Part shown: one piece after another, positions 7,212 through 55,334 of the stretch | Numbering within the stretch: the first letter of the stretch is position 1 | Layout of the letters: the number at the start of each line of letters is the position of its first letter | NCBI RefSeq assembly: GCF_003473485.1 | Contig: NC_053043.1 | Coordinates: 1,684,001 to 1,748,000 of the forward strand | Reading direction: 5' to 3' | Length of the DNA stretch: 64,000 bases | DNA from: Medicago truncatula | Lineage: Eukaryota; Streptophyta; Magnoliopsida; Fabales; Fabaceae | Notes under the pieces: generated by a model | What the model was told of the DNA's origin: nothing | Databases searched by the model: none | The model's input: only the letters and a program-made list of their open reading frames with translations | Made by a program: the position numbers and the translations under genes

Positions 7212-7264
7212 ATCAATTATTCATGATCTTTCAAAAAAAATAAAAAAAATCAATTATTCATGAT
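7212..7264. mobile_element. micro-retroinsertion, 16-bp TSD
   Basis: ATCAATTATTCATGAT at 7212-7227 is repeated exactly at 7249-7264. Between the copies are only 21 bp, CTTTC followed by an A-rich run. Confidence 0.8.
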
Positions 7265-7351
7265 TTTACTTTAACCGTTCATGATAGTATAGAGATTTTC
7301 TTTTTGGACTATGTTAAAGTTATTTGTTGAAATAATTTAGCATTGTGGTGA

Positions 7352-7452
7352 GAACATGTTTATGTTTGGGTCCTATAATACTCGAGGGATTAGTCTCCGC
7401 AGTTGCGCACAGAGGATACCCAATTTATACAAAAAAAAAGAACATGTTTATG
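7352..7452 (+). mobile_element. 5'-truncated legume SINE with 13-bp TSD
   Basis: GAACATGTTTATG at 7352-7364 is repeated at 7440-7452. The 75-bp insert contains GGATTAGTCTCCGCAGTTGC and GGATACCCAATTTATAC and ends in A9. The first of these motifs is the conserved 3' part of legume tRNA-derived SINEs; the tRNA head is missing. Confidence 0.85.
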
Positions 7453-9378
7453 CACAAGTGTAACGTTTTGTCGGATCAATTTTTTGTTGATAATTTTTTT
7501 TAGAAGAATCTAAAATGGATTAAAAAACCAAAAAACTTAGGGTCTGTCTGAAACACTTCTTGAAAACTCTTAGTTTTTAAAAATTTTAAAATTAAAAACT
7601 TGCTTGATTACAATGTTCTGTAATATTGTTTTTAAAAACTGTATTCAATTTTCTGGTTTTTAAAAGCAAAAAATCAAAACAGCCTAAACATGTTTTGCAT
7701 TCAGTTTTGACTTTTGTAACCAAAATTCAGAATTAAAAAGACACGGAAAATTGTGCAGTTTTCATTAATGGTAGAACCTTAATACAACATCAGTTCATTT
7801 TTAATTTTCACAACTTTGTTATTTTTTTCCTTGGATAAAAAACTCCAACATTCATTTTAACGTGATATGATCTTGCTTTGCCAAACAAGTTTTTATTGTC
7901 TCTTCTCCAAAATTGTTTTTGAAATTGAGAGTACGAAACAACTTTTTTTATTATTTTCTTTTTGTAAACAGTTTTTTAAAATTGATTTTAAAAATATAAT
8001 TTAAAAACTAAAAATCAAAATGCATTCAAACAGCCCATACCCATAGTCTGTCGAGCACAAAGAGTGCTAGAGAAGAACTAAGAGGATAAAGTATTTGTTA
8101 CATCAATATTCCAAAACAAGTAAAGCTAACGCCAAAGCCACAACAAGCTTGCCAAAGAACACAAAAACACTTAAACAAAAAGAAGCCACCATGTGTGGTA
8201 ACTGCGGAATATTAGGATGGTTTGCCTTCAACCACCAGAAGGATTATAACTTAACTTCAAAAACATGGAGCCAGAAAAATACGCAGCAGCAGCAGCGCAA
8301 TTGACAAAAACTTCAAAAAAAAAAAATCATGACTATGGTATGAAGTTCATATGAAGATTAAGCAGAAGAAGAAATGTAAGGTGGAAGATGAAGAAAAGGA
8401 AAACAAAATTATGAAGATTTCTGGATTTTTGTTTTGTTTTGTAATTTGATTTTGAAGTTTATTTTTTTAATGATTTTGAGTTTTAATTTTTCTAGGCAAG
8501 ATTATGAATATGAGGATGAAGATGGAGAAGATGATGAGGGAAGAAGAAGATGGAAGAATTTTTATTTTTAAATTTACATTTTTTCAACTTCTCGTTTTCT
8601 GTTTGGTCCCTCTTCTTATGCGACTCATCATCTAGTTTGTCACGTCCGCGTCGTCAGCCACGTTATCCTCCGTTAACCACATGTATGTTTTTGTAACAGA
8701 AGCTAACAGAAGGGACGAAAAGCAAAACGCTAACAACTTTCAAGGACGGATTTGAAAAAAAAAAAAAAAACAGGAACGAAAAGCAAAAAACATGCCAAAT
8801 TAAAGAGACGATGTACATATATAAACCTAAAATTAAAATAATAAATATTCAAATGAAGCAATGGGCAAGCCATTGGAAAAAACCGGCGAACAAAAATAAA
8901 GTCAGGGGAGGAAGACGATGATAAAGAAAAGAAAAAAAATATAGTTTTTAAAAAAATGTTTTGTTTTGTATTAGGTAAATTAAATAAAAGTGTAAATGAT
9001 TTGGTTAATTGTGATTGGTGTGTGTTAGAAGGTGTAACCTATAACATTTCTAAAAAAAAAATATGTAGGATTTTGTGGGAATGCGCATTCTCCACCTTCT
9101 CACATGAGAATAAACTCATGGAAATAATAGAAGTTATAAGTTACTTCATTCCCAAAAACCTTTATATCTAAATTTTTTTTTTTGTCAAACTTTCAACATA
9201 TAATCATTCTCAATAATATCATTTTTAAAGTTGAAACAAACACCTCCTTAGTAAAATGATTTTTCAATTAATTGCAAGTGGAAAATCAATGGCATGCAAT
9301 CCGCCTACATTCGCAGCATTAGTGCAAAAACTTAATTTTTTTTTGTTGGTTACTTGACATTGTTTCTATTGAAATGTA
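7453..9378. other. intergenic, repeat-rich, no gene
   Basis: About 7545-8035 has degenerate inverted ends (GGGTCTGTCTGAAAC... and ...TTCAAACAGCCCATACCC) and may be an old hAT-like MITE. About 8640-8830 has a GGGACGAAAAGC / GGAACGAAAAGC direct-repeat motif. No ORF with a recognisable domain. Confidence 0.4.
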
Positions 9379-9664
9379 ATCACTCTGTCCTAAATTGTAT
9401 GACGTTTTGATCATTTTACACGTATTAAGAAATGTAATTAATTTTGTGTGGGAAAGAAATATTATGAGTTGTTTTACAAAATTGTCCTTAATAAATGATA
9501 TGAGAAAGATAAATAAAATTGAATTGAAAGAAGAAAGAGTAATAAATAATTAAAGATATAATAGAAAAAGTAACATTAATGTTTCATTGGTATTGTAAAA
9601 TGACATACAATTTGGGACAATTTTTTTTCTTCCTAAAGTGACGTACAATTTAGGACGGAGAGAG
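9379..9664. mobile_element. Stowaway MITE
   Basis: ATCACTCTGTCCTAAATTGTATGACG at the left and CGTACAATTTAGGACGGAGAGAG at the right form the inverted ends, next to TA on both sides. CTCCCTCCGTCC-type ends and a TA duplication define Stowaway (Tc1/mariner-derived). It lies in the 5' flank of the glycosylase gene, about 330 bp from its first ATG. Confidence 0.85.
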
Positions 9665-9990
9665 TATATAAATAGACTTCCCAATTCACATGCATCACCG
9701 TTGCATTCCAAAACATTTTACCTATGTTTTAACATTGCCTTCTCTTAAGTGTGAGTGAATGAAATATAATTTCCCTTTTTACCATCAACAGAATAAGAAA
9801 ATAATATTAAATATATTTTCTTCGAAGAAAATATATTGCCAACATTGGGCTAATTTCTACCTAAAAAAAGCTAATTTCAGTAGTGGATCTATCAACATAT
9901 ACTCTTGCCCTTTTGGTAATTTCAACCCAAGGGTTCTAAAATAAATAAAAATAACTAAACCCTAATTCACACTAACCTTTTCTCGACGAA

Positions 9991-12900
9991 ATGACAACTC
10001 CTCTCATTCTCGAAGAAAACAATTTGAGTGCTATGATCTTTGACGACTTGTTCAACGATAAAGTTCAGATGCCCGACATGTTGTTTCAAGGTAACTATTT
10101 CCTCCTTATGCGAACTTTATCATGTTTTGAATTTTGTTTGAAACAAGACCTTTTTTGAATTTAACACGGCAAGCCAAGGCAAGTTTACAAAGGGACCCTA
10201 TTTTTTTATTTTATTTGAGGGTCTATTTTTTATCGTCAAGTGCTGTGCATCATTCTTTCTTTGTATCTGTTTCATGCAAAGCAAAATCGTAACATTCATC
10301 TACTTTTTATAAACTTAAAAAATCTTGATACCCTTTTGTGATAATCGATTGGTATCGTAATTAAAGGTGCAAACAAACCCTGTTGTTTATGCATAACTAG
10401 TGCAAAAAATCTGAATTTTTTATTTTTAGTCATAGTTTTTGGGTGCCGCATAGGGTTTGTTACTCTCCTCCATAAAAAAAAAAATGAGCATTTTGAGAAA
10501 AAATATTCTCCCTACAATTACCTTTAGAATTATTTCCATTTTTTATTTCCTTTCCCATATTCTTGGGATTTTAAATCAACCATGTATAATTTTCCATAAT
10601 AAAATGTTAAAATGTTTTTTTTTTTTGCTTCAGAACCCAAATCAATCTAACATACCTGTATCTAGCATCTAGGCAAAGAGGAGAACATTAAAGGAAAGAA
10701 AGTAAAAAAAAAACAATATGAAAATGAAAGTGAATTATTTTGTTTAGTTGTTTGGTAGTGAAATTAAAATTTGTTGAAGCTTTTCCTCATTTGTGTGATT
10801 GTGTAAAAAGTATATTTACAAGATCACATAAACACCACAAATAAAAAATATAATGAGCTGGAGACTTATTGTAAATAAATAAAAAGTTCGAGAGATTGAT
10901 TGAGATCAATTAAATAAATGTTTAAAAATTAAGATATAAATATATACACAATAGATACTTTATGTATTTGTCAAAAAAAAAAAAAAAAAAAAGGATACTT
11001 TATGTAATACAAGCATATTATTGGGAGAAATATACAATAGATATTTTTTTGGTCAAATATTTTTGTACTATATCTTTTCATTTATAAGATATATGATTTA
11101 TAAGTGTATATTAGCTAAACGATTTTTCAGACATAGTATATTCCCTAAAAAAAATGACATAGTATAATTAGCAAGATTTTTAGTAACGTAGTATTTTGAC
11201 TTTTTGGTCATTTCAGTCAAAGTGCCATTCTTATTCAGCTAAACAAAAGTACTTAACCTATTTCACAACAACTATATTCTGCAAACCCTAATTCCATGTT
11301 GCCACCACAATTTCTCTATCTCTCCCCCGTCTAACAAGTTCCAATTTTGATGTAGAAAACAATTCTGGTGATGTACACAAAATGAGTAGCAGTGACAATT
11401 TGTTTAACGATGAAGTTCAGATGCCTTATAACGTTTGGTCTCAAGGTAACTTTTCAGAATTAGAGGCTTAGAGTAATCAAACTGAATTTACAAAATTATG
11501 CGCCGTTCTGACTGTTGTGGTATAGCTAGCTTAGGTTCGTGGATGTTACTATTGATGCTTGTGTGGGGATGCCTTTTCTGCCCCCTTGTATTTTCGAGTT
11601 CCTTCCACTAGCTTTGTGGATTGTTCTCTCTGTTAAAACCATTATAATGATTTTTCTTCAAGATAAGTGTTGTGTTGTTTACCACTGCCATGCGTTGTTG
11701 AATTTGCGGAGAGAGAACTGGAGGTGAAAAGGGTAAGCAGGAAGGAGGCTACCTTAGTTTACCAAAAACGTAGTAAACTAGTGTTTACATTAGTTTCTAA
11801 TTTGAACCATAGATTTTTAAAACATGTATCTCAACTCACCAATCGAACTTTCTCCTTGAGATAACATAACATATGTTCAAATATTGAACACAATAGGAGG
11901 AATATGTTATATTAAAACCTTCACGTTTTTTCTTATGACTATACAGATGAAGATGTTGAATCATGTCAACCGTTGTCGTCAAATAAAAGGAAGCGTAGCC
12001 AAAAGGAAGTTAACAATGAGATGCAAAAAAGAGTTAAAAGGAAGAGATATCGGCCTAAAGTGGTTTCTCAATTTCCCAAAGTAGCAAAGAAATTCTCTAA
12101 AAGTAGTAACACTCCCAAACCTGTAACTCCGAAGCAGAGGAAAAGTTATGTTAGAAAGAGTGCTAAGACTTGTGAGTGTCAACGACCATTATTTGTTGAT
12201 GATGGAAATTCCATCTCTTTACCATTTTTGTTAAATTTCAACAATACAAAGATTGAGAAGAGTGGATTTGAGAGTTCAACCATAACTAATGTATCTGCTA
12301 TCGAATACAATTCACTACAAAGTTACCAAAAAATGACTTCATTGTCATCTTTATGTCTTGTTGAGAATAGAAGAATTGGAGGAAATTTTCCAATAATGTG
12401 TAAGAGGAAAAGAGTAAAAAGAGAAAGAATAAATTTGGTAAAACTCTTGAACCCTTTTGCAAAGGGTAGTAGATCAAAAACTTTTATTAGGAAGAGGAAA
12501 TGTTGGAAAGATTTCTACGTAGAAGGAAATTCTACTACAATCAGCCGAAAAATGAAAACTATAATCAAGAAGATTATTTCCTCAAATAAAAAAATACATC
12601 GAAAGGCAAATAAGAGAAATGTCCGTAAAAAATCAGGAGAATTAGTTCTTTATGAACGGCCATTGTTGAAAGTCAATGTAAAGTTTGACGAAGAGACATT
12701 ACGTGTATGGAACTTGCTCGTTGCTGAAAACAAACATGATGAGAAAGATGAACATAAGAGGAGGTATTGGGAGGAGATAAGAAAAGCCTATCATGAAGCT
12801 GTTGAATCATTTTTAACTCGAGTGCATAACGTTCAAGGTATATTTTCATCACTGTTGATATCATATTCCATTATATATTAATGTTGGGAAGTTTCCATTA

Positions 12901-15900
12901 GTTGAGATATTTAATTTATGTTCAAATTAAAAGGAAACCATCTTTTGTTTTAGCATGACCCATTAATAGGCAATTGACAAATCTGATTAATTGTGAAATT
13001 TTATATTGAATTTTTTTTTAGACCAGCCTTAATTTTGGAGTCTTGTATTTCGACATTGTATGTTATACATAATTCCATATCGATTGTTCATTTTTATAAT
13101 TAATGATGCTTACATGTTCTCATTAATATGTTAATACCAGTCCTTTAATAAATAAGTTTGCTCTTTTAATTTAGGAAAATGCTAACTTGTGGTCCTAATA
13201 CAATATAAGGATTTAAAAATAAAATTAAAAAATAAAGGTTGCATTGAAAAGATAAGTTTTTAAACTTTTTAAATTATGAATGTACAATTTTTAAAATTAA
13301 ATTTTTACATTTAGTTTATTATCTAGTGCCCTTAAGGCACAAGTTAGCAAAACCCTTTAATTTATTGCATTATTTATGAACCAATTGCAGATCATGAGTC
13401 ATTGATAGCCTAATATTAAATCTTTTGCTCAAAATAGATATCAATGGCTTTTTGATTAAATATGACTATATCTTTTAAGTGTTAATTTCTAGTAATAAGT
13501 TCTTTTGTTGGGTCAAAATAATTTTAAAATGCATGTACCAATTGTCAAATCATTGTTAATTTTTATAAGTTGTGATTCTAATTAGATTAATAAAATATGT
13601 AGGTGATAGACGATTCTTACCATGGAAAGGCTCAGTATTGGATTCTATAGGCGGAGTTTTCTTAACTCAAAATGTATCTGACCATTTGTCAAGGTAAAGT
13701 TAAATAAATAATCAATTAATTTATTCAATTTATCTTTGGTGTTGAATAATAATAATACTCATTCTTGTTTCAAAAGCTCTGCATTTATGTCACTTGCTGC
13801 GAGGTTCCCTGTCAAATCAGTTAGTTGTGAACAAAGCAACAACATGATTTTTTCAGATCCTAAATCTGATAAAAAAGTTGAAGAAATGGAAGCTCAGAAA
13901 GCTAATGAATCTTCCAAAGTTGTCAACAAAGAAACTCAAAATAGTTCATATTTAATAGAGAGAAAATCAAATTCTTCTAGCAATAAGGAAGAAACACATC
14001 ATGATACAAAAAAAAGTAAGAAGCAAGAGGAAAAAATGATGATACTGAAAAAGAAAAGGCAAAAGTGGGAGGCACTAAGAAAAATCCACAGTAGAAGTGA
14101 TCGACACATTGACCATGTGGATTCTATTGATTGGGAAGCAGTAAGAAATGCCAAAGTTGGTGAAGTTGCTGAAGCTATTAAAATGCGTGGTCAACATAAC
14201 ATTATTGCTAAAAAAATACAGGTACAAAATATATAGTTTTGTAGTCAATAATATATAACTTTGGACATATTATATTATTTTTACATTGTATATTTGTAGC
14301 TTGCATTGAACAAGTTCTTGGAACACCATGGAACCACGGATTTAGAATGGCTGAAATATATTCCACCAAACGAAGCAAAGTAAGTCTAAACATCTTATCT
14401 ATGACCGTTTTCAACTTTTCTTTTTTTAATTAACTAAAATTTTCATGTTATAGGGAATATCTTTTGAACATATTTGGTTTGGGTTTGAAAAGTGTGGAAT
14501 GTTTAAGACTTTTAACACTTCAACATATTTCTTTTCCGGTAAGAATATGAAGACACAAATTCTTGTTTTTATGGATGAAGCTATTTTTGTTATAATTAAA
14601 AACATGTTCTTTACTTGTTAAATGTCACTTTTGAAAGGTGGATGTAAATGTTGGACGGATTGTTGTAAGATTGGGATGGGTTCCCCTACAACCCTTACCA
14701 GAATCAATTCAAATACATAATTTAGAACAGTAAGTCTCTCAAAGTTTTTTTTATTTTTTATTTTTTTACACTACTTTATATATCACTATTCATTCATTAA
14801 CTACATTGTTTTGTTTTGAAACAGGTTTCCAGATCCAATCAAAATCCAACAATATTTGTGGCCAAGATTATGCAAACTTGATCATCATACATTGTAATTA
14901 TCAAACATTTTTTAATGTATTTAAGTTTTGTATTTTGTTATATATCTTACCCATATGATATGTTACCTTGTATAGGTATGAATTGCATTATCAGTTGATT
15001 ACCTTTGGAAAGGTACATATTAACATTCAAAATAATTCATTTACACCTTTCCATTAAGAAAATCAAAATCATTTTAAAACATTTTGCAGGTTTTTTGCAC
15101 CAAGAGAAACCCAAATTGCAATGCTTGTCCGATGAAGGACAATTGTAAATATTATGCAAGTTCTCTTGCAAGGTATGTGTTGAATTTATTTATTAAATTT
15201 GAAGAATATGCTATGGCTTGATGTTGGAGGGAATATCAATAACTTTGACAATGCATAACATAGTCATTTTCATAATTTATTAACCCTTTATTTAGATCTA
15301 AAAGCTAATAAATGTTCTAATCATTCTCATATAACATAGTCATTATCACTAGATATGTCCAATATATATACTAGGGGTGGAAAAATGAATTAATATGGAT
15401 CATAACAATTCATTAATTCTCTACAATCCATAATTTTTTTTTTTGTTAGAAAAAATTCATCCAATCCATCCATTAAGTATAAAATCCATCAAACCCATCT
15501 ATGATTAGATTATTAATGGATGAATATTCATTCAATTCATCTATTAATGTGTTTTTTTTTTATAATTTTTTTAAAATTATTATTTTGTTAATAAAGTAGT
15601 GCAAAACTATTCAACTCAAAATAGTTTTTTTTTTTTTTGCCTAGACCCAAAACAATTTTTTTATTAAGCTCAAAATGCATAAATAACATAAATTTAGTAT
15701 GTATGTATATGTATATTTAAAGGTATTGGTCCTCCAGCGTTCCCCATGACATCCAAGGTTGTCAAAATCGGGATTTTTGCTTCAGGTTGAAAGAGAAGAG
15801 CAAAATCAACAATCGCAACCAAAAGCGAAGGAATTTACTGAACTACTTTTGTTAAATCGATATAAGAATTCGTAAAATCGCAATCAAAATCGATAAATTT

Positions 15901-18900
15901 TACCAAAAAATAATAATATTAAATATATTTTATAAATGGTATATAGTCATAAAAGACTTAGTTTATAAGAAATCGTAAAATCGCAATCAAAATCAATGGG
16001 TTTCGCCTATTTTGGGATTTGCAATCAAAATGGGTTTTGCCTATTTTGGGATTTTACTATGGATCTGAGTCGTCGAAGGTGAAGAAAGTCACAAAATCCT
16101 AAATTTTAAGATTTAAGTCGGAGTTTTGACAACAATGGACATAGCTACCTCAGAGAGAGGGGTAGCTTTGGCTACATCAAAAATTATATTTTTATTTGTA
16201 TTAGTAGTGTATTTTGTGTTTAGCTGCCCCAATAAAATATATTTATCTACCTCAAATAAGTTTCTTTATGCAAAGTTAAGAGAAATAAAATACTAAAAAG
16301 AATACCTCAAAAAAAAACTTAAAAGATTACCACTTGTTTAAAAGATTTATTTTGTCTTATTTTTATATTTTCGATATCTTAAGCATCTAAAAAGATAATA
16401 TTATCATCTACCAAAAAAAAAAAAAGATAATATTATCAGCAATGAAAATTGTAAAGATAAACTAAAAAATAAAATTATCTAATTGTTTAAATTGTAAATA
16501 TGGAGAAGGTCAATTATAAAGGAATTTGACTCTTTAAAGTGCTGTTGAACTCTTTTTTTTGTTTTTTTTTAAAATAGCTTTTTTAACTTTAACTTACGTT
16601 TTATATAAGTAAAATGGTTGTGATTTTTTTCTTATGGATAGCATTTAATATATCAATTTTTTTAAGAAAAACTAGTTACAAACCCGTGCTTCGCACGGGT
16701 TGAAGAACATATTTTGTAAAAAAAATTATTTCAAAGAAAAAATGAGCAAATTAAGGAATATTGCACAAACATTAGAAATATTTCTCAAAGCTTTATCGGG
16801 TCTTGATTCATAAAAAGAGCATATATTTTGTTCATGAGATTGAGAAAACAACATAATAATTAAGATTAAACTAATTGGAACCGATGAAGGAACCAATAAT
16901 GTGCAAATTACGATTACATTCGCATGACACAAAATGAACCAAAGAAACAACATTTCCAAGTTAAGATAGTTTTGAATTAGAGTTAAGGGTAAGTCTAAAG
17001 TATTATACATTCAGGTACCATACAAGCTAGAGTATAGGAGTTCATGAAGAACAAAATGAGTAGCAGTCAAGTAGGAAAATAAAAGTATCTCTAAATTGAC
17101 AATGATGAAACGAATACTCATTACCATATTCGTAAACTCTTTCTTCAAACAAAGAAAAACAAAAGAAAAATTAAAACCCTCAAATCTCTACCCATCATTT
17201 CTTCAATTCATATAATATTTTTCTTCTTTCTAATACAGCGTTCTTCTTCTTGCTTGAAAATTAGTATTAATTACTTCCTAGCTCTCAAAGCTGTTGTTGA
17301 AAACAAAGACGTGTCCTGCTAGCAAGTTACTACACAACCATTTTCTTCTCTCCAGCACAATCTCAAACTCTCCAGCAGAGTTACACTTGATTTTAGCCTT
17401 AAGTCCTGATAATTTATACTTCACCATGATCTACATTTTGAACGGGGACAGGACTGATGTTGTCAACATAGAATCTAAAGACCCTGCTATTTCCTAAAAC
17501 CTGAGGCAATTGAAGATATGAGATCCATATCACTAATAATTCAGGTATTCTTATAAAGTTTTGACCATCTTAAAGATAAGAATCACCTCAAAGCAAAATA
17601 TACACTCTCTAAGTTTCCAATTCCATTGCTTCATGAACTCGGTATAGATTGCTTCAGATCAAAATTTAGCAACAACAGATCTCGACGCACAGTAGCCTTG
17701 CATGGAGTTAAATGACATATATTAGTGAATATATACTCTTAGACATGTATCAATAAATCTAGCAAATACACCGTTAAATTAACAAATTTGTTTGATACAT
17801 TAAGGCCACATTAAAATAAAGGCTTTTACGAAAGAAGTTAAAGTTGTTGTGGTTTATTTGATTTTTTAGTTTTAAAGCTATTTTTAAGTTAAATGTTGTG
17901 TGGCAAAATATTGTACAAACTGTGAATTTTTTTATTTTTTTTATGGTATCCGGGGTTCGAACCCTTGACTTGGCATGTATTTATGCATTGTTCATATCAA
18001 TTGAGTTAAGCTCACAAGGACAAAACTTTGAATTTATTATGAATTAACATAATAAATAAAAAAAAAGTTTAAAACATTTTTTGAAGGCTAAAAATGTTAA
18101 AAAAAAAAGATATTTTTTTTTTTACAAATACTATATTTACTCAATAACATTATTTTGTGTAACATGAATATAAATTTGTATCATCATATAAATGACTTGT
18201 TAAATATTTGAATAGAAGAAACAATTTAAAGAGTCTGAAATAATAACATAAATAATATCAAAATAGTTGGTTTTTTTATTTCAATTATATTCTATAACAA
18301 ATTTCGTTATAAGAATATCATATTTTTGGTGTCTTTGAAAAATATAAGAATTTATATTATATGATATTATATTTGTTACATTGTTGGTATCATGGAAACA
18401 AATATGTTTAGTTTTTTTTAATAAGAGAAAAATATGCATAGTTTGTTACAATATAAAAATGCAATATATATATATAAGTATTATTTTTTTAGGCATCTAT
18501 ACCTTTTTTGAAGAAAACAATATTACTTTTAATTAAAATCAAAATTTTATTAAAACAATCATATGCATTATGCAATGCCAAAAAAAAAAATTATACGCAT
18601 TAGCGTAACAAAAAAACAGACACACATAAAATATTACTCTAAACGCTAATGTGTGTGTATATATTTGCGAGGTTGAAAAAATAAAATAAAATTATTTGGT
18701 ATTCCTTTGAAAAAAGATAATAAAATTCCTTTGAAAAAAGATAATAAAATTAAATGGAACTTCCTTAAAAAATTAAATGGAACGGTTCAATAAAATAAAA
18801 TAAAATAAAGTTAAATGGAAGAAAAAACATATTGAAATATAATATTAAAAGAATAAAAGAAAAGATTCCCAATGTGAGTTGAAAAGAGGTGCTTGTGAAA

Positions 18901-39618: not shown

Positions 39619-39829
39619 TTCTGAGATGAAGATGACATCATGATGACATTGGAGAATACATTTTTTGTACTAAGGATTGAATTAGAGCTTATTAGTAACA
39701 ATTGGTTTTCAATGATTATGAACTGTAACAGAAAAGAAATAAAGTAGGGAGATTATGAGACTAATATTAATTAAGTTCATATTTGTAGAGCGCTTTTTCT
39801 GCCTATTATGGATTTTTGTATCTCGTTCT

Positions 39830-44467: not shown

Positions 44468-46333
44468 TTGCTCAATTCTACGGTGAAAAATACGTTTCAA
44501 GATCCCATTGAAGTGTTTGCTTCGGTGAACCATTCCAATTTCCTCTTGCAATTTTTCTAGCAAACCGACATATGTAATTCCAGAATGTTCTCGGATTATT
44601 TTTGTTAAAAGATAGGTCATAACACCGTTCATCTCTTTTCCTCCAAAAGCCTGCACAGGTTGGTCGCAACTTACAACTCAAAAAACGAAGGAAGTGAAGA
44701 AGTATGTCCATTGAATTGCATTGCAAGAACAGATTAAAATTATATCTAAAATTATTCTTACTGCAGTATCGGCAGCCATCTGACAATCTTCACAAGCACT
44801 GAAGCAAATGGCCACTCCACCATTTGTACGTTTAGTGACAGGGTCTATGCTAGGGGGAATGTTATTCATCCATTTCCAATTATCACTGCAAGCATATATG
44901 CATACAAGTAATAAATTAGCTAACTGACTTTCAAAGTCATCTGATTTCTATCAACAGTTTAGATTGACGGACTGCAAATTATAAGAAATTTGGATCGATG
45001 AACTGGAAGCAAAAAATCAAATAGAAGAAGAAAAAAAAGCATTTAATATACATGTACTTACTTGTGTTTCTTATAAACATACATGAGATCAAGAGTTGTT
45101 CCACTATGACAAGCATCAATAATAGCATGAAGTTTGACACCTTCCTTGAGTGGCCGAACAATGGTAGAATTGATTTCGTCGTCAGTGATCATTCCTTCTC
45201 TAATGAAATCAACAGGGCAAATAGTTTCATCAAACCCGTCAAGTTCATCATCTTTGTCTATTGCCGGTTGTTGCGTACCATGTCCGGAGAAGTAGAACAC
45301 TAATGAGTCTCCGAACTTGCAGTCCTTCACCAGCCACTTTAAGGATTCCATTATATTCCTCTTAGTTGGTAGGAAATTTAGATCTTTCTGTTCTTCTGCA
45401 TTTTACAAGTTTCACAATAATATCATTCTCTTATCTTTAATCATTACCACAAAATCTGTTATTAGAGATATAGGAAGTTATAGATTAGGAATTAGTTGGC
45501 TATTATAGCATGTTACTAATTCATATTTAAAAAAATACCATGTTTCTAATTGATGCCATGTTTACTAACATTTGTTTCTAGCACTTTCTATGTATCTTTA
45601 TCACACATGAAAAATTGAAGATATGATGAAATATAACTTGATATCAAAGAATTGACTACTTAATATCCATCTTCTATGACATATTCTAGTAGTATGAATT
45701 ATCACATTGTAGTTCAGAAGCAGCTTTAAATTCTTTCTTATGTTATTCATTAATTAAAACAAACAGAAAGCATGAAATAAATAAATAAACATTAACCGAA
45801 TACATGCATCAAATTATCATTGTATGAAAAAAATTTCAATAGCAGATACCTGTGAGGACGCGTATGGATTCTATTGGGAATGCAAAATTATTAGTCAGTA
45901 GTTTTTTCATGTTAACAACATCATTAACGGTTCCCTTGAGCATGTACCGTCTTCTTCTGTAAGTAACTCCACATAGAACCGCGCGTTTGTTACCGATTGT
46001 AGTTGTAGACAACAACAAAGAGGAATGGCTTGATGCATTTTTACTAGCATTTTGTTGTCGATCTTGGTTGAAGAATTTGGCTCTTAAACTATTTTCTCTG
46101 AATTGTTTATAACCTGAAATTGATTTACTAACACCTTCGCATTTGTTGCAACGGTACATAGTTGTTTTTGTAGACACTAAAAACTCTCGTTTGCAATCAC
46201 TGCAAGCAAGTTTTTTTCCACCAGTATGCATTGAAGTTGAGCTAAGTAACTTATGATAATTTAAGCAAGTACCGTTAGTGTTATTTCTGGTAACACTGTT
46301 TTTGTTTCTTTTGGCTTTTAATTTATCACTCAT
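44468..46333 (-). CDS. type I metacaspase, copy D (divergent, catalytic dyad intact)
   Basis: Minus-strand exons 46333-45850, 45395-45062, 44885-44762 and 44650-44468 join in phase to 375 codons. The zinc finger is LACSDCKREF...YRCNKCEG, at about residues 43-66. The caspase-like part starts at GNKRAVLCGVTY. His200 (YFSGHGTQQ) and Cys257 (IDACHSGTT) are present. It is clearly more divergent than A and B, resembling the MC2/MC3 type. After RRIEQ a donor GTAAGT follows. A family-like EPQLS last exon is not found. A tiny exon at 44355-44338 (SYCAS and stop) is possible. Otherwise translation would read through the donor. The array order and shared orientation suggest tandem duplication. Confidence 0.85.
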
Positions 46334-46974
46334 TATTTGATCAGGGCAAGTATATATGCATCTAACAAGAAGAATGTTTAAATAGAGAAGTTTTCAACTC
46401 AAGTGTACCATTGGATTTGAGCTGTCTTCAGCTCAAATATGAAAACAAACATTATTTTTGGATTGACAACTTTCACCTTTGTTAATGCATTTTCTTTCAG
46501 AAAATTGTGAACCGTTACATAAACAAAGTTACATATTTTTTGTATTAATAAAAAGATGTGAAATGTGGAATCCAATCCCTCAAATTGGAGGATGCATATT
46601 GGTTACCTTTTTTTGTTGTTAGACACTAAGACAATTCTGGTGCTGGGCTGGAAACTCAAAAGCAGAATTCATGTAAGAAGGGATGTATTATAATTAAATA
46701 TAAGAAAACGAGTTATTGGTTGGGGCATCTCATATGTGTTGAAGATATATGCTTTTATCCATTATTCTTGCATTAAATCATCAAGAACCAGATGCTCTTT
46801 ACTTTAGTTTTTTTTCCTTCCTAATGAGTCTAGATATATAAGTAGGACTCGATAAAAATTGGTTCGGTTCAAAACTCCAACTTGCATTTGATACGAACAT
46901 ATTTTTAGCTCGAGTTAGATTAAGCTCGTTATAGTTCTAATCACATAATTAGAATCAATTTTTTTTAGATCTTT
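46334..46974. other. 5' flank of metacaspase D
   Basis: AT-rich. No other gene seen. Confidence 0.4.
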
Positions 46975-47462
46975 GGGTTAAATATGTTTTTGGTCCCTAT
47001 AAATATACCAACTTTTCGTTTTAGTCTTTCTAAAATTTTCCTTCAACTTTTAATCCCTATAAAATTTTCAATCACTACTTTTGGTCCCTATTTTTAAGTT
47101 TATTTTAGTATTTTTTAATGAAATTGTGCAGATATGTGTAAAATAATGTAAAAATATTTCCCAAAAAAAATAGAATTTTTTAACAAAACATAAATTTAAT
47201 ATGAATTTTTAACCATCAAAAATATAAAAATTAATGTTTTGTTAAAAAATTCTAATTTTTTTTGGGAGAGATTCTTATAATATTATGAATTTTTCTGCAA
47301 AATTTTATTTAAAAATATGAATTCTACATGTGAGTTTACTTTAAAGGAGAGACCAAAAGTGAAGACGAAAAATTTTTGCGGGACTAAAAGTTGAAGGAAA
47401 ATTTTAAAGAGACTAAAACAAAAAGTTGATATATTTATAAGGACCAAAAACATATTTAACCT
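46975..47462. mobile_element. foldback element of the GGTTAAATATGTTTTTGGTCC type
   Basis: The left end GGTTAAATATGTTTTTGGTC and the right end GACCAAAAACATATTTAACC are inverse copies, and similarity extends inward (CTTTTAATCCCTA / GGGACTAAAAG). It is a common legume Mutator-like MITE, related to 21374-21699. Confidence 0.85.
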
Positions 47463-47540
47463 TGAATCTTTTGACCTTCAAAATTTTTTTTAAGAGGCAA
47501 ATATGATGGGGTGTTATGTCTGTTTAACATTTGCGTAATT

Positions 47541-47586
47541 ATAAATAAGGGTGACGTTGTACCAAAAGAAAAAATAAATAAGGGTG
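47541..47586. mobile_element. micro-retroinsertion, 13-bp TSD
   Basis: ATAAATAAGGGTG at 47541-47553 and 47574-47586 encloses 20 bp, ACGTTGTACC followed by an A-rich run. Confidence 0.75.
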
Positions 47587-47591
47587 TGTAT

Positions 47592-47640
47592 AAAAGTACT
47601 CTCTCTATCTACCAAAAAAAACAAAAAAAGTACTCTCTCT
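47592..47640. mobile_element. micro-retroinsertion, 15-bp TSD
   Basis: AAAAGTACTCTCTCT at 47592-47606 and 47626-47640 encloses ATCTACC plus an A-rich run, 19 bp. It starts six bases after the preceding micro-insertion ends. Confidence 0.8.
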
Positions 47641-47759
47641 TCACTTTTTTTTAGGTATTAAAATAAGGGAAATGAGTTTGGTAATATAGAGTTAATAAGG
47701 GAAATGAGTTTAATTGAAAGACAGTTACAATACTTTTCTGAAAAAAACTATGACAATAC

Positions 47760-47930
47760 TTGCATGATAATATTGGTTCTCTTACGAATGAACATGATAG
47801 TAGTGAGTGATAAATGACAAAAACATACAATGAGTCAAGGAGAAATTATTAATTGAGATCACACTGCAATAAATCAATCAATTTGTGACAAGTAAGACAA
47901 TAAGCTAACTCAAACAATCAATAATCAACT
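47760..47930. repeat. partial copy of a gene 3' end also found near 63.6-63.93 kb
   Basis: GTGACAAGTAAGACAATAAG is identical at about 47888 and 63892. GAGTCAAGGAGAAAT and the TTGAGATCACAC / TTGAGACCACAC block also correspond in order, with sequence between them deleted here. Confidence 0.7.
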
Positions 47931-47949
47931 AAGGATGCCCACGTCAATT

Positions 47950-48180
47950 GCATCCACATTTAATATAACTCAAAAGTGCTTTCATTGGAAAATCACAATT
48001 CACGTCAATAATATCTGCCCTAATCAACTTGCTTAAGCTTTGAAACACTCGAAGTCACGGTACGTGAATACATTGTGTGCCTTCAAATCCTCAAGAGCAT
48101 GACACCCAGCAAGAAACAACAAAAACGCGGTTCAAATGAAGGGTTTTCAGCAAGGGAAATCCAAATCCAGTAGAAGAAAA
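47950..48180 (-). pseudogene. F-box/LRR (FBD-type) gene fragment
   Basis: On the minus strand one frame reads FPLLKTLHLNRVFV. After a frame change come LLFLAGCHALEDLKAHNVF and then a ...LIRADIIDVNCDFPMKAL-like stretch. These are the LRR motifs of plant F-box/RNI/FBD proteins (SCF ubiquitin-ligase substrate receptors). The F-box itself and the C-terminal FBD are not seen, and frames are broken, so this is a relic. Confidence 0.7.
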
Positions 48181-48619
48181 AGAAAAGCCTTTTAAGCTAA
48201 AAGATTTATAACATATAAGAAATAAACAAAGAAAGAAAGGGTTTATAACATTTTATAACATAGATGTCTAAATCAGAAGAAAGAAAGAAAAAAAGAAAAA
48301 ATAAATGACGAAAGTGTTGCATAAATTTAAGCTAAAAGATTAATTATGTCATTTTGCTAAAAACTTATAAGAAAATTACGATTTTATTTTTTTCTTCACA
48401 AAAAGTAAAGCAATTGGATATTTTCAAAAACAAAATGAATAAAAAGACTTCTTTAAAAAATTATTAGAGTGTGTTTGTTTCAAGTTATGTTTGTATATTT
48501 CCATGAATAAAATGATGGAAATATACATTTCAATGTTTGTTACAAGTTTATTAAATTTTATTCTTGGATATAAAAGATTTATGGGAGAGAAAAATATTCC
48601 CATAGAAAATGGTCGGAAT

Positions 48620-48675
48620 AAAAGTTTCCACGAAGATCCCCTCAAGAAAAAAAAAACAAAAGTTTCCATGAAGAT
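48620..48675. mobile_element. micro-retroinsertion, 18-bp TSD
   Basis: AAAAGTTTCCACGAAGAT at 48620-48637 and AAAAGTTTCCATGAAGAT at 48658-48675 (one mismatch) enclose 20 bp, CCCCTCAAG plus an A-rich run. Confidence 0.8.
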
Positions 48676-48759
48676 AGAAATAAATTAGTGTGTAACTACC
48701 CATTAAACTTCTTATTGTAATAGTTCCTGAAAATAAATAAATATTAATCAAACATCTTT

Positions 48760-49959
48760 TTTTTAAACGTCCAAGAATAAAACTTCTTTCTTTATGTTCC
48801 GGAACAACATTCCTAGGAATAAATTTAGTACGCTTATAACAAATAGAGATGCGATAAGTCTCACCCTTGGACCAAATGAGATGCGATGGGATTTATTGAT
48901 CCAGCGGTGGAAAACAAACTTCCTCATGGTGCAAGACTAATTTACTTGTGCACATTAGACAAAGGCCTCATTCTACTCTTATTTTATTTTTAGTTAATTT
49001 TCTCATGATTCCATTGAGACTCATGGTGGGGGACCTGCCCATTTAACCATGGGCAGGAAGGATCTCTATACCCTTTGTCTGTCTATTAGTTACTCCCTCC
49101 ATCTTATTATCATAATGCATAAGTATTGTTTAAGCTAATGCATACTTCATAAGAAAATGATTAGTCATGCTGATTTCCGTGGTAAAATACTGTGGCTGGA
49201 AGCATTATTAGTGGAGTAGTTGCGCTGTGTAAACTGTTAAATTTAAGAGAAAAGGTGTAGCAGATTGTTAGATTAGGGAAAAACTGGGGAAATAGTTTTT
49301 ATTTTGGATCGAAACAGTAGAGAAAGATGATGTGCATGCTTGGTATCTCGGAGGGTTCACCGAGATCGCGATGATACCAAACATGCACAAAGAAAATGGA
49401 GAATCTTCTGGCAAGAGGTTACGACGTATGGTGAATGAACTCATGATTGAGAGGTGAAAAATATGAGCAGACGACACTAAAACTATTGATAGGACACCAC
49501 AGCCCAATAGATTGGATGACTCAATCATTGGGCCCAAGTCACACACTTACAGTTTCTAGAAAGTTGTAGAAGCTTAGTTGGGATATTCCCTGAATTTTAA
49601 AAACTTTTCTCTTATAAAAGAGAGGGAAGGGTAGTTGTAAGTCATTCAGAAATCTTGTTAGAAAACAGTTAGAAGATAACACTCTCTGTTTAGTAGAAAA
49701 ACTGCTCTGGTTTAAGAGTTCTTGGAACTTTAATTGGTTCAGTTTCTTTTCTATTTCCGCCATTGTAAGAGTTTCTAGCTCGTCATTTTCTAATTCAGTA
49801 ACATACATTGTTACCTTGAGTTTTCTGAGTTCTATCAACTGTTTTAATGCTAAAGAAACAAATTTAATTCCCATAAGGAAGAACACTAACAAATAGAACT
49901 TGCAGGGTTCCAAATTGTTCTTTATTTTCAATGGTTGTGTACTAAAAAAATTAAATAGT
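48760..49959. other. repeat-rich interval, possible LTR-retroelement remnant
   Basis: Around 49605-49625 a TATA-like CTTATAAAAGAGAGGG precedes AC-rich leader-like sequence, as in LTRs. On the plus strand 49290-49440 reads as an unassigned open stretch (WIETVEKDDVHAWYLGGF...). I cannot name the element or confirm its ends. Confidence 0.35.
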
Positions 49960-50002
49960 GTTAAATAAATTTACTCTTTTTTTTATGTTAAATAAATTTA
50001 CT
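49960..50002. mobile_element. micro-retroinsertion, 16-bp TSD, minus orientation
   Basis: GTTAAATAAATTTACT at 49960-49975 and 49987-50002 encloses only 11 bp, CTTTTTTTTAT. Confidence 0.75.
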
Positions 50003-50316
50003 TAAAATGGCAATCACTTACTCATGGCATTGATAATCTGCATCACGATGTAAAACTGAGTTAACAGTAGAGAATGAAAGTAGTCACTTACAAATATTGA
50101 GGGACCAAATGCGAAGCACGTAATAAAGAGGGGGTGGAAATCGGAAAGTGGTATATTTGCATAGACATAATCATATTTAAGCCTTAATTATTTGTTGAAC
50201 AACCTACCTGACAGTTTTTCACTCAATTTTGGCAAAAGAAGCAAGGTCATTGGTGATCTGTTTAATTTTATTTTTGTCTCGGTGATTTTGAATTTCCATT
50301 TTGATGCAAAAATCAG

Positions 50317-50647
50317 GTGAAAATCGGCCTGAGGTTATTGCGAGGCTGAAGCAAGATCTACGTCTGTTTTGGCCTGTATGTGATATTGTCACCTTCGGAT
50401 TCATTCCAGTCCATTTACAGGTTTGTAAATTGTACATGTCCACAAATGCCTTTATTAGAATTTAATTTTCTGCTATAACTTTAATTTTAATCATGATCTT
50501 CAACTCAGCTGTTACTGCCTAGCTTTTAAGCTAATGTATCATTCTCTTTCATAATTGCTGCAGCCATTGATGAATAGTTGCTGCGCATATTTGTGGATCG
50601 TTTATTGCAGTCGCATTGCAAAACGAACAAACTTGACTGAAGCTTAG
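50317..50647 (+). pseudogene. Mpv17/PMP22-like gene, two 3' exons only
   Basis: Exon 50317-50420 (GENRPEVIARLKQDLRLFWP, then VCDIVTFGFIPVHLQ) and exon 50564-50647 (PLMNSCCAYLWIVYCSRIAK, then RTNLTEA and stop) have good splice sites and matching phase. The W-x-P...F-x-F-x-P-x-x-x-x block is the signature end of the Mpv17/PMP22 family of small membrane proteins of peroxisomes and mitochondria. Relatives have a few more residues between KQDL and WPVC, and no earlier exons were found upstream, where the sequence is repeat-like. I therefore call it a fragment. A distant 5' part cannot be excluded. Confidence 0.75.
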
Positions 50648-51015
50648 ATCTTGGTTTGTACATAATAAATATTTAGTGTCCTCAATCAATCTTTTATTGC
50701 TTAGCATTATCTGGCTGCAAAGATATGTAACTAAGTATCAAAATCATGTTATCTGCAAGTTTATAAATTTTGTATCAATTTGGTATTCGGCTTTATATAT
50801 GCTTCATTCACAATCTACTACCCTCCTCCCGATCCTAATCCGAGTTACATGTTTGACAACACTGATTTTTGTAGCTTCCCTCTTTAATCTGAATTGATTT
50901 CTTTGTTGAAATGCCTTTCTTTCTAAATAATTGCAGGTCTAAACTAAACATTAGTAGTAATTTTATATTTACATTCTTCTTCAGACTAGTTTTAGCTATT
51001 CAGGTAAAAATCTTA
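50648..51015. other. 3' flank of the Mpv17-like fragment
   Basis: No gene seen. Probably contains a 3' UTR. Confidence 0.4.
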
Positions 51016-51397
51016 AGCTTTGTTTGGGAGTTTGAAGGGGAGGGGAGGGGAGGGGAGGGTTTTGGAAAAAAAGGAAGGAGCAAGTGGAAGAAATAGAAAA
51101 CATTGGGAGGAGGGGGTTTTGGAGGTTAATTTTTTACTCATAATAAAAAATCCCCCTCATCTGGGGGAACTCAAAAATTGTATTGGGGGAGGGTTTTGGG
51201 GGTTATAGAGGGTTTATATGAATTTTTCAAATTCAATCTATATTGTTATAATATTCTTAATATATTAATCATAAATATTAGTTTATCATTCTCTAAAAAA
51301 TTCTTTCAAAAAATGTGAATTTTTTTGTCCATTTTTCTATATATTTCCAACCCCCAAGCCCTCCCCTCCCTTCTCCTCCAAACTCTCAAACAAAGCC
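51016..51397. mobile_element. Tourist-like (PIF/Harbinger) MITE with G-rich end
   Basis: AGCTTTGTTTGGGAGTTTG at the left pairs with AAACTCTCAAACAAAGCC at the right, and TTA is duplicated at 51013-51015 and 51398-51400. Length is 382 bp. A run GGGGAGGGGAGGGGAGGGG follows the left end and could form a G-quadruplex. Confidence 0.85.
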
Positions 51398-51761
51398 TTA
51401 GTGTCATGCAATGACTTTGAGGTCCTTGATCCTCTGTTGATGCTGCAGCTTTAACCAGTCCAATCTCAACAATTATTTTAATTTAATGGCTGAGTGATTA
51501 ATGCTATTAGCCATTGGATCAATCCAAATGCCGAGTATGGCTGGACAGAACTGCAGAGAATCTGGGTTTTCTTTTCAGGTTGCAAATGTGTGTGTGTGTA
51601 TGTATATATATATAAGAGATTGATTGATCCCACATACAAACCTTTTGATGTTTGGCTGCTATATTGTCTGAGGTCTTAAGGTAACTAAATTATGTATTTG
51701 CTTTGTGTATTTGGTGTTATTGAAATTGTGTTCAGTGATAACTTTTAGAACTATTTGTGAT

Positions 51762-51803
51762 ATGATCCAGTTTTTTTTGGGTACAACGACATGATCAAGT
51801 TTT
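51762..51803. mobile_element. micro-retroinsertion, 13-bp TSD, minus orientation
   Basis: ATGATCCAGTTTT at 51762-51774 and ATGATCAAGTTTT at 51791-51803 enclose TTTTGGGTACAACGAC. Read in reverse this is GTCGTTGTACCC plus A, the same CGTTGTACC tail as the insert at 47554. Confidence 0.7.
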
Positions 51804-53694
51804 ATTGTAATAATTACTTCACCAACAATGAATAAAAAGTTATTTTGATCATTTCTAACATGTTTTTATTATTGGATCAAAAAGTCACATCATGTTTGAT
51901 TTAATGATAAGTTTTATTGATTCAATACTAAAAACTAATTTGCGCATGATGCAAGATTTGTTTCACTTGTGCATCATAAAATTGACTTATCTAACAAGTT
52001 TTACGCAAAGTATTATTGACCCTCGATTGTATTGCTCTCATTTTAAATTTAAAGACCAAGAGTATTAAAGTTGACAAAAAAATGATTGTTGATTGATGAA
52101 TGCTAGTTTTTTAAACTTATTGCATTGTAGACGTTTAAAACTCATTTGATGCATTGGATAGGAAGACAAAGTATTATAAAACTTTCTTATCCTACTTCAA
52201 TCTCTTGTTTTGTGTAGTTATGGAATACAAAATAGTAATAGTTAGGTTATAATAAAAAATTACCAGGGTTTAGATGGCCAGTATTTGGTGATCCACTCTC
52301 CAACACATTGATTTGATCATAGATATTTGCCTTGCAAACTGGACACGTTAATCCAACAGAATTTGATTGTATTTTTAGAATTAATTAATAGCATCATGGT
52401 TAAACTCTTTTTTAACATAACTTCTTGTTGTGATGCAGACTGAGTTGAGGATGCACATGTCCCATCTTAATAGAACCTGCCCATCCTTTTCATTTATTTT
52501 AAATTTAACTATTTATTAATATTAAACTATTTTGTTCCTTTCATTTTAAAATTGTTCATTCTTGGACTTAAAAATGATGATGTGGCATGTCTTAACCAAC
52601 GTCACATACAATTGTGATGATGTTTAATAACCAACACTGATAAAATTACCTTTGTCAAAACAAAACAAGAAAACACTAATAAAATTCTAAGAAAATCTCA
52701 TAAAAAAGTCATTCATTTTCTAATTGAAACACTGAAATATAAGTAATTAATCTATTTCAAAACAATCAGGCTTAAATTCCACTTTGGTCCCTAAAGTTAT
52801 TTTAAAAGTTTAGTTAAATCTCTTAACTTTAAAATGGTTTAATTTGCTCCATTTACTTATCTTTTTTTAAGCAATTTGGTTTTTTTTCTTCTTATGTGAG
52901 TCGTTAACTTTGTTTGCTCTTGTTGATGTTGCAAATGATTTGTATGTACCAGTACTTGTTGAAACGTTTTCCCACTTTACTTCTTCCCCAAGTCAATTTA
53001 GGGTTCACCAAAACTAAAGTTTTCTTAAAATTTCTCGATGTTTCTGCGAAACAGGTCAAAATGGTGAACAAATTCAGTTTGTCATCTTCCTGACAATCTT
53101 GTGAATCTTGAAATTTTGTTCCAAAGAAGGAGTATTTTTGTTCATCAAATCCAGGCGAAAATGAGGCTTTTGGCACAAGTGCTAAACTTAAAATTACAGG
53201 CAGGAAGGAGCAAGCTCTAAAATTGATTAACATAGTCATAAAAATTTCAATCAAAATCAGAATATTGCTGCATTTGAAATGAGACTAGAAACTAGCATGA
53301 CATGGGGAAAAATATCATTGTTGTATTTAACGCAATGTTGAGTTTGATGAACGAAAATGTATTTAAAAAATTTAATTTGGTCCCTTAACTTATTGTGAAA
53401 ATCCAATTTGGCCTCTAAATTTTTGTTGGAAGTTCAATTTTGTCCTTTAATTTACCTATAAATTTCAGTTTGGTCCTTAATCCAATACAGATGGATATGA
53501 CAACATAACCTGATTATAACTAAACCAAAACATAACATAACCTGGTAAAAACAATTTATTAGTGATAGGTTAAAAGAGGTTCATAACCAATACATAAGAG
53601 TATTAAAAAAAAAATTAACCAAATAGGTTCATAACCAACACAATAATCAAAGAGGTTAAAAATGGTACGAAACAGAACATGAACCATACATAAC
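51804..53694. other. intergenic, repeat-like
   Basis: Fragments of GGTCCCTAAAGTT / GGTCCCTTAACTT type repeats at 52785-52860 and 53375-53490 lie in the same orientation and may be pieces of one older element. No gene seen. Confidence 0.4.
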
Positions 53695-53747
53695 AGGTCC
53701 AAAACATAACATTTTTTTTTTTTGAGCGAAGGTCCAAAATATAACAT
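53695..53747. mobile_element. micro-retroinsertion, 18-bp TSD, minus orientation
   Basis: AGGTCCAAAACATAACAT at 53695-53712 and AGGTCCAAAATATAACAT at 53730-53747 (one mismatch) enclose T11 and GAGCGA. Confidence 0.8.
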
Positions 53748-54260
53748 GAACATGACTACATATGATCCAAAACAGAATATTACAAAATATACCAAAAATA
53801 TAATATGACCGAAAACATTATATAAAGTCCCCTAATGAGTTGGTTGGCTTTGAGTTTTTATATTTTTGTGCGCTTTCTTGGTGCAGCAGGTGTAGTAGCT
53901 TGACTTTGAGACTTAACTGTGTTTTTTGGCATGCATTTGAGTATTGTTGTTCACACATTTTGTTTGACTGAGAAATATGAGTATCCCAAATATCCTTCAG
54001 CAGTTAACTTCTGAAATTTTAAAGAACCGGTTGCAGTTAACTGCCGATTGTCGAGGAAAACTTCGGCAGTTGCCGAAGAATTTCAAACCTGAAATTAAAT
54101 AAGGAAATACACCTAAATTTTTCTTTAATTAAATTTAATTCTTTACTACATGATTCTTTTTATAACGTTGTTGATTTCATTCATATAATTTTGTTGTCAT
54201 AAATGAAGAAATATGAGATCCTAGAATTACATATGAGATCACGTTTCTTACTAGTAATAG

Positions 54261-54309
54261 AAAAGAAGTTTTATTTCTGCAAAAAAAAAAAAAAAAAAGA
54301 GGTTTTATT
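54261..54309. mobile_element. micro-retroinsertion, 15-bp TSD
   Basis: AAAAGAAGTTTTATT and AAAAGAGGTTTTATT (one mismatch) enclose TCTGC plus a run of A. Confidence 0.7.
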
Positions 54310-54679
54310 AATAGAATAATTACAAATATAATTATTTGAAAGAGAGATGAATAATATCTAAAATATTATAAAGTAATAATAGATTAATCAAACCTATGAA
54401 TAATGACAGACATCAATGAAATTAATTACAAATATAATTATTCTATCATTTATAATGTTTTTTGTTCTTACATTTTTTTTATTGAATTACCATTTCAGGT
54501 CCATTAATTACCGATGACAAACATTTTTCTTTGTTGTTGCATTTTTATTTTTTGATGCACTCTATTGATACTATGGAGTGAGAGAAGTTGCTATTGAAAG
54601 TAGTAATTAACAACCATTTGATTAAAATCAACATGTAAGATTATTTTAGCTTTAAAACTTATTAAAATAAGGGTTATGT

Positions 54680-54850
54680 TATTCGGTGCTCTTGGGACAC
54701 TGGTTAAGGAAACTAAAAATATTAAGCTTGTATTGAATTCAACAATTTTTTAACTTTTCAAAGTCAAATCTATCATTTTTCACCATTTTTCAATACAACA
54801 TTTCTAAGTTTGTCCTCTTAACCAATGCCCTAAGAGCACTCTTTAGTTTT
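54680..54850. mobile_element. small foldback MITE
   Basis: GGTGCTCTTGGGACACTGGTTAAGG at the left is the approximate inverse of CTTAACCAATGCCCTAAGAGCACT at the right. AT-rich core, no ORF. Confidence 0.65.
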
Positions 54851-55043
54851 TCTTAAAACAATGTGATTAATTTCCCCTTCTTCTCAAGCGTGCTTCTCTT
54901 TCTCTTACGATTCCAACACAAAAACTGAATCTTTTCTTCTCTCCCACGGTCAAACGGCATACCATGAATGTTCAAATACAGACGACTAACATAAGAATCA
55001 TTGTTGTGAATCTTTTATGAAACAAAAATCAAATTAAAGATAT

Positions 55044-55189
55044 AAACTTTTTAAACCCACTTGGGTTGGGCTAGTGGTATTGGCTTGGGACTTGGGAGTG
55101 TGCTCCTCCTCTAGGTCTTAGATTTGATTCTCTCTGGTGCCAATTTTTTGGACTAATTTAGCTTCTTCACAAAAAAAAAACTTTTTAAA
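55044..55189 (+). mobile_element. SINE with 12-bp TSD
   Basis: AAACTTTTTAAA at 55044-55055 and 55178-55189 encloses 122 bp beginning CCCACTTGGGTTGGGCTAGTGG and ending TTAGCTTCTTCAC plus an A run. It has A-box-like (GGGCTAGTGGTATTGG) and B-box-like (TTTGATTCTC) positions as in tRNA-derived legume SINEs. Confidence 0.85.
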
Positions 55190-55289
55190 AGAAAATCAAC
55201 AACAAATAATCTTAACTATTTATAGTGAGGTGAAAAATTGGTGACAAAAGTTTTTTTTTTATCGTTTTTGATCTCTTATAGTGTGTTTA

Positions 55290-55334
55290 GATGGGAGAAT
55301 ATTACTTCACCAAAAAAAAAGATGGGAGAATATT
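55290..55334. mobile_element. micro-retroinsertion, 14-bp TSD
   Basis: GATGGGAGAATATT at 55290-55303 and 55321-55334 encloses ACTTCACC and A9. ACTTCACC resembles the CTTCTTCAC tail of the full SINE 110 bp upstream. Confidence 0.85.

Follow-up and report, generated by a model that had tools for sequence, protein, structure and literature searches.

The window analysed here is a stretch of 64,000 nucleotides of Medicago truncatula (positions 1,684,001-1,748,000 of contig 2, in an assembly of 429.9 Mb in 42 contigs). It contains eleven sites at which a run of A or T, with a few accompanying bases, lies between short direct repeats, a design that a sequence-only reading had attributed to minute retroinsertions. 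We refer to such insertions as stubs, consisting of a body of 1-15 nt and an A-tail between the two copies of a target duplication. The design was found at 11/11 sites, with direct repeats of 13-18 bp flanking the run. As that reading had also stated, the repeats are perfect or carry one mismatch: they are exact at seven sites (7212, 10954, 16394, 47541, 47592, 49960 and 55290) and differ at one position in each of the other four pairs (48620, 51762, 53695 and 54261). The starts listed as 16394, 49960 and 55290 are given as 16389, 49959 and 55289, respectively, in what follows. A tRNA scan and an Rfam scan of the window found nothing.

Stub sites and their empty counterparts

Evidence for empty sites comes from paralogs within the same genome. 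At four of the eleven sites (16389, 48620, 49959 and 55289), and at a longer insertion at 7351, the insert is missing from paralogs and the repeat occurs there just once, which supports the proposed retroinsertion. The stub at 16389..16438 (+ strand), in which an 18-bp duplication, AAAAAGATAATATTATCA, flanks TCTACC and an A-tail, lies inside a dispersed repeat. Four copies of this repeat were compared; three (L042, L043 and L044) have one repeat copy without the insert, and the fourth (L045) has a deletion at the position. Elsewhere in L042, at about its positions 100-200, there is a SINE-like insertion (SINE, short interspersed nuclear element).

The stub at 48620..48675 (+), with an 18-bp duplication (one mismatch) around CCCCTCAAG and A10C, likewise lies in a dispersed repeat, which spans at least 48450-48850 of the window. 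Forty of 436 candidate copies were scored, 39 of them besides the window's own. By coordinates, 22 of these 39 have one repeat copy and lack the insert, comprising 14 spanning matches that are 33-45 bp shorter and eight two-piece matches in which 37-38 bp are skipped at the repeat. Alignment of five of these 22 copies showed one repeat copy and no insert. Sixteen of the 39 cover the left side only and are uninformative.

At 49959..50002 (-), a 17-bp duplication flanks a T-run (in the sense orientation, T followed by A8 and G), and a paralog whose left flank is 85% identical (L041) has a single repeat copy and no run. The stub at 55289..55334 (+) has a 15-bp duplication flanking ACTTCACC and A8/A9; its paralog on contig 1 at 25.2 Mb (L027) differs by precisely one repeat copy plus the insert, which are absent there. 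The surrounding region, 53960-56651, is a segmental duplicate of the sequences L027 and L034 (contig 1, near 25.2 Mb), with about 88-91% identity in pieces. The duplicates have in common a SINE copy at 55044..55189 (+) and do not share the stub. This normal-length relative ends in TTAGCTTCTTCAC and A10, has a probable AAACTTTTTAAA duplication, and is covered mainly by 38 of the 39 other matches among the best 40 of 1482 candidates.

Two longer A-tailed insertions also lie in the window. At 7351..7452 (+), a 14-bp duplication flanks a 66-nt SINE-like body and A9; paralog L035 has a clean empty site, and most of the 40 scored places match the body. An intermediate insertion at 8712..8788 (+) has a 16-bp duplication (one mismatch) around a 27-nt body and A16.

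The remaining stubs share the same structure. The one at 10954..11006 (+) has a 13-bp duplication flanking TTTGTC, A20 and G. Two neighbouring stubs, at 47541..47586 (+; 13-bp duplication around ACGTTGTACC and AAAAGAAAAA) and 47592..47640 (+; 15-bp duplication around ATCTACC and A8CA3, a tail as in the TCTACC SINE family described below), have no spanning copy among the best 40 of 805 candidates. The site at 51762..51803 (-; 13-bp duplication with one mismatch flanking, in the sense orientation, GTCGTTGTACCC and an A-run) has the lowest repeat score of all eleven (10), and no spanning copy was found among the best 40 of 73 candidates. For 53695..53747 (-; 18-bp duplication with one mismatch around sense TCGCTC and A11) both of two candidates were scored and neither is a spanning paralog. 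At 54261..54309 (+) a 15-bp duplication with one mismatch flanks TCTGC and at least A14; paralog L034 is uninformative here because of a larger deletion at that position. The weakest site is a possible stub at 7212..7264 (+), of uncertain origin, in which a 16-bp duplication flanks CTTTC and A8TA7.

Numbers, lengths and polarity of A-tailed insertions

A total of 314 kb was scanned, made up of the window and 25 stretches of 10 kb (10 kb of which is N, leaving 240 kb). Positions of these stretches were chosen by hand, and five are clustered at one end of contig 1. As controls we used order-2 and order-4 Markov simulations and mirrored sequence or mirrored patterns. In the window, a run is present in 16 of 34 short-range direct repeats, while ten order-2 and ten order-4 simulations gave 0-2 direct repeats each and none with a run. 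This composition-matched control, which the sequence-only reading had set as one of two tests of its proposal, produced no run-containing repeat in 20 simulations of the window. The strict scan of all 314 kb returned 29 A-tailed repeats with an insert of up to 35 bp, compared to none in five Markov simulations and four in the mirrored control.

A scorer with complexity and tandem filters found 22 real against 8 mirrored cases with a body of up to 16 nt, and six of those eight mirrored matches are the same loci read in reverse. For bodies of 17-80 nt the counts were 6 real and 9 mirrored, and for bodies above 80 nt they were 8 and 0. Given these counts, the short and long classes stand out, and mid-length insertions are no commoner than chance would give. 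Pure chance as the origin of the class is ruled out by the Markov and mirrored controls, and the observation of a tail-stub class is confirmed as real.

Rows of the strict scan were then curated by eye, removing five of 29 short and 11 of 20 longer ones. Four of the short rows were tandem or unclear (L012 5287, L012 5804, window 57115 and window 9596) and one duplicated another row (L013 6297); the 11 longer rows were judged to be tandem or segmental repeats. The site at 47541, missed by the scan, was added by hand, and 51762, likewise missed, was left out. The reach of the scan was 400 bp, which places longer LINE (long interspersed nuclear element) copies outside all curated counts, as are SINE copies recognised by homology without a detectable duplication. 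The curated set holds 34 events in 314 kb, 25 stubs and nine longer insertions. In the sampled stretches, stubs are more numerous than longer copies with a visible target duplication.

Insert lengths are bimodal. The 25 stubs have bodies of 1-15 nt, two events are intermediate (27 and 66 nt), and seven are long (112-187 nt). Within the stubs, the body measures 5-9 nt in 19 and less than 5 nt in two; none has a body of 0 and two have one of 1-3 nt, so these are not pure simple poly(A) insertions. If truncation of a 125-nt element were uniform, 25 of 27 truncated events falling within 15 nt would have a p of about 1e-20, assuming independent events and a fixed element length.

Stubs and longer insertions agree in their target duplications, as expected if both are retroinsertions: the median is 16 bp in the 25 stubs and in the nine longer insertions (Mann-Whitney p 0.46). 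An A opens the duplication in 21/25 stubs and 7/9 longer insertions, with only a moderate preference for an upstream T, possibly the trace of an L1-type nick (A's after T's) at a boundary that is ambiguous as the tail is also A. The last duplicated base is T in 17/25 stubs (p 0.0002 against 32%), which hints at a putative microhomology at the joining end. The A-tail stands at the 3' end, adjoining the right-hand repeat, and the non-A bases lie mainly 5' of the A-run; one extra base separates run and repeat at 10954, 48620 and 49959. Stub bodies are 77% pyrimidine, as compared to 57.5% in the six bases preceding 226 runs of A9 or longer.

Parent elements of the tails

Three of the stub tails recur throughout the genome, 15-19 times as often as their mirrored patterns: TCTACCA9 (777 against 40), TTGCTCA9 (534 against 35) and, of relevance to the stub at 47541, GTTGTACCA7 (136 against 8). 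The first 20 listed places of TCTACCA9 were examined. At a repeat score of at least 9, seven are long (body 83-165 nt), six are stubs (body 5-7 nt) and seven have no repeat; at a score of at least 12 there are four long copies and four stubs. Six of the seven long copies belong by eye to one SINE family and one is divergent. TCTACC-A(n) is the 3' end of that SINE family. Three of the 20 places (L053, L055 and L058) represent another dispersed sequence that ends in TCTACC and an A-run without a duplication and is neither this SINE family nor a stub. Stub bodies, at 1-15 nt, leave no room for the internal RNA polymerase III promoter boxes, so the stubs would at most be SINE-derived.

For TTGCTCA9, 20 places were taken at even steps through 100 listed ones. 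Fifteen are stubs at a score of at least 9, one has a 31-nt body and four have no repeat; 12 stubs and the 31-nt case persist at a score of at least 12. Two of the 20 (L066 and L078) are the same loci as the sample stubs L004 and L011. A repeat scoring at least 9 with a body of up to 16 nt occurs at 14 of 223 mirrored A9+ runs, far below the 15 of 20 seen here. Two of the four places without a repeat, L079 and L083, are probable LINE 3' ends, in which the end of an open frame (judged by eye) is followed by a 14-nt 3' tail and A's. The stub body is continuous with these LINE ends, which holds for TTGCTC only. TTGCTC-A(n) is thus probably the 3' end of a plant L1 LINE. In a search with L083, the best 40 of 154 candidates all match, with identities of 77-100% (a rounded 100% for four copies besides the query itself), so the family has at least 40 matching copies; the best-ranked copies extend far upstream, in a ranking that favours long copies.

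Eight of 100 listed GTTGTACCA7 places were examined, yielding five stubs (body 5-8 nt) and three places without a repeat. Sets selected by their tail miss bodies shorter than the pattern, save by chance, and therefore show the gap above stub size and not a minimum length.

Origin, scale and relatives of the stubs

We consider it very probable that the stubs are products of target-primed reverse transcription (TPRT) that ended early, LINE or SINE RNA being copied by L1-type LINE machinery. In such a process the endonuclease would nick the target, and DNA would be synthesised from the nick with the poly(A) tail as template. Copying would stop once the tail and about 5-12 nt of the RNA 3' end had been covered, and the short complementary DNA would be joined to the other target strand, leaving 12-20 bp duplicated. 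The early end may be due to stalling of the enzyme, to early or quick end-joining, or to a template RNA of which earlier degradation had left just the tail. The loci themselves show that the target is duplicated, that tail and body are polar, that 4/11 sites have empty counterparts and that two tails match a probable LINE and a SINE 3' end; LINE enzymes as the agent and the reasons for the early end are what we infer. To our knowledge, TPRT is the sole process that gives this polarity, a tail, a 12-20 bp duplication and LINE or SINE 3' ends together.

Several results weigh against this interpretation. Five of the eleven sites have no informative paralog. The site at 7212 is ambiguous, as paralog L035 (about 80% identical) is already A-rich there and the surrounding sequence looks like a tandem array that has diverged. 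At 48620, one listed spanning copy (C2:11853345) is, by coordinates only, just 7 bp shorter than the query. With a lax scorer at a score of at least 12, the mirrored control fared much worse than in the other scans, with 15 real against 9 mirrored cases. The LINE label of TTGCTC is likely and short of proven because the RVT_3 match in Pfam is sub-threshold (E 0.0062, 16.9 bits, cut-off 21.6) and concerns one of the two pieces, L083, the L079 piece giving no Pfam match; the label also rests on a sequence motif. The sequence-only reading had held the extra bases to be probably SINE or LINE 3' ends, which stands where it could be assessed, for TTGCTC (probable L1 LINE) and TCTACC (SINE); for most other bodies (TCCTT, TCTCT, TTTGTC etc.) no parent was identified. 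Finally, the idea that the parents share a hairpin acting as stop signal was rejected: four folded 3' ends gave z values of -1.59 to 0.17, with no shared stem near the tail.

A variant of this explanation differs in the cause of shortness. LINE and SINE RNAs might be degraded from the 5' end to the tail and a few protected bases, with the enzyme running off the end. The narrow body length (5-9 nt in 19/25, below 5 nt in 2/25) is what a protein-protected RNA end would be expected to leave. However, stalling at a fixed place fits equally well, and the deficit of 0-3 nt bodies is modest with 25 events; we think degraded templates an unlikely cause.

Alternatively, the stubs could derive mostly from messenger RNAs as ultra-short processed pseudogenes. 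Many polyadenylation sites end in C or T, and the bodies are varied, have C or T as their final base in 21/25 cases and mostly lack an identified parent. Yet three 6- to 8-mers show polar recurrence, with 136 to 777 occurrences, and two of these correspond to a probable LINE and a SINE 3' end, which makes a messenger origin quite improbable.

Break repair would produce duplications with filler (a staggered break, fill-in and filler DNA), the A-runs being incidental. Direct repeats of this kind do coexist with the stubs. In a scan without the A-run demand, 41 of 64 direct repeats have no run and constitute a separate, non-tailed class. Examples of this duplication-plus-filler class in the window, with repeats of 17-26 bp around 8-14 bp and lacking any stretch with A, or with T, at 7 of 8 positions, lie at 47662-47711, 57130-57171 and 15995-16054. 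In the same scan a run is nevertheless present in 23/64 repeats, compared to 11.7% of length-matched random spacers, an over-representation of about three-fold, although not all 23 share the clean design. This excess leads us to reject incidental A-runs; moreover, the A-tailed repeats are polar against the mirrored controls (29 to 4 and 22 to 8) and their bodies recur. We therefore regard break repair as a very remote explanation for the stubs. Equally hard to credit is the proposal that at some sites, 7212 in particular, a segment with a pre-existing A-run was duplicated in tandem; 7212 itself may be such a case because L035 holds an A-rich stretch in place and its surroundings are repetitive, but the proposal misfits 16389, 48620, 49959 and 55289, whose compared paralogs have no run.

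The density of one per 6 kb that the sequence-only reading proposed holds within the window; the 25-stretch sample gives about one per 16 kb, and the former is probably too high for the genome. The sample contains 15 curated stubs in 240 kb (Poisson 95% 8.4-24.7), which extrapolates to about 27,000 stubs in 430 Mb (15,000-44,000), a total that is only rough because the positions were hand-chosen, with five close together on contig 1. We suggest, tentatively, that most LINE-driven TPRT in this genome might end about 6 nt past the poly(A), in which case stubs (roughly 15,000-44,000) would outnumber ordinary LINE and SINE copies. Such a preferred stop would point to an initiation checkpoint built into the process or to protection of the RNA end, and the stubs would permanently document, for each LINE family, attempts at retrotransposition that failed. 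Should the rate hold, aborted and completed retrotransposition could be counted from sequence alone, and the early steps of TPRT in plants would become testable. Stubs would in that case also add small insertions of about 25-50 bp (insert and duplication together), new A-tracts and short repeats to plant DNA, from a source that has drawn little notice. With a body of only about six bases, they would probably escape repeat maskers.

Other repeats occur in the window. Two related stretches of GC-rich repeated units, 59831-60123 and 62454-62775, lie inverted about 2.4 kb apart and may mark the two termini of a larger mobile element. A minisatellite of TTCCTCC-type units at 56181-56479 is possibly in a coding region.

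The stubs resemble several known systems in part. Like the tandem duplications with filler left by break repair in plants, they have direct repeats around a short filler; break-repair duplications are not expected to show poly(A), polarity or recurring filler. The non-tailed repeats of the unrestricted scan may belong with that class. In the freely accessible literature, as judged by titles and abstract openings, no paper was found that describes such stubs as an abundant class in plants.

Like 5'-truncated LINE copies, the stubs have an A-tail and a target duplication and retain the 3' end with the 5' end gone. Unlike them, they are cut at most about 15 nt from the tail, and mid-length hits do not exceed those of the mirrored control; for truncated LINE members, Ohshima (2013; PMC3747384) gives a range of 100 to 1,000 bp. 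The poly(A)-ending Medicago SINEs MT_SINE-1 to -3, tabulated in the same paper, share A-tails with the stubs, and one SINE family found here ends in TCTACC-A(n), as do several stubs. In contrast to MT_SINE-1 to -3 as tabulated there, the stubs lack nearly all of the element.

In human disease genes, simple poly(A) and poly(T) insertions have been attributed to L1 endonuclease-dependent retrotransposition, and Wimmer et al. (2011; PMC3219598) give target duplications of 6-17 bp and, among 18 insertions, one poly(T) case in NF1 that is possibly severely truncated. The stubs are like these insertions in having an A-tail and little else, a form discussed there as severely truncated Alu, L1 or processed pseudogene. 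Unlike the human case as given there (one of 18), plant stubs are the commonest curated A-tailed class in our sample, and for some tails the body recurs. Isolated tail-only cases are thus known in human, while the abundance and the narrow stop zone in a plant look new.

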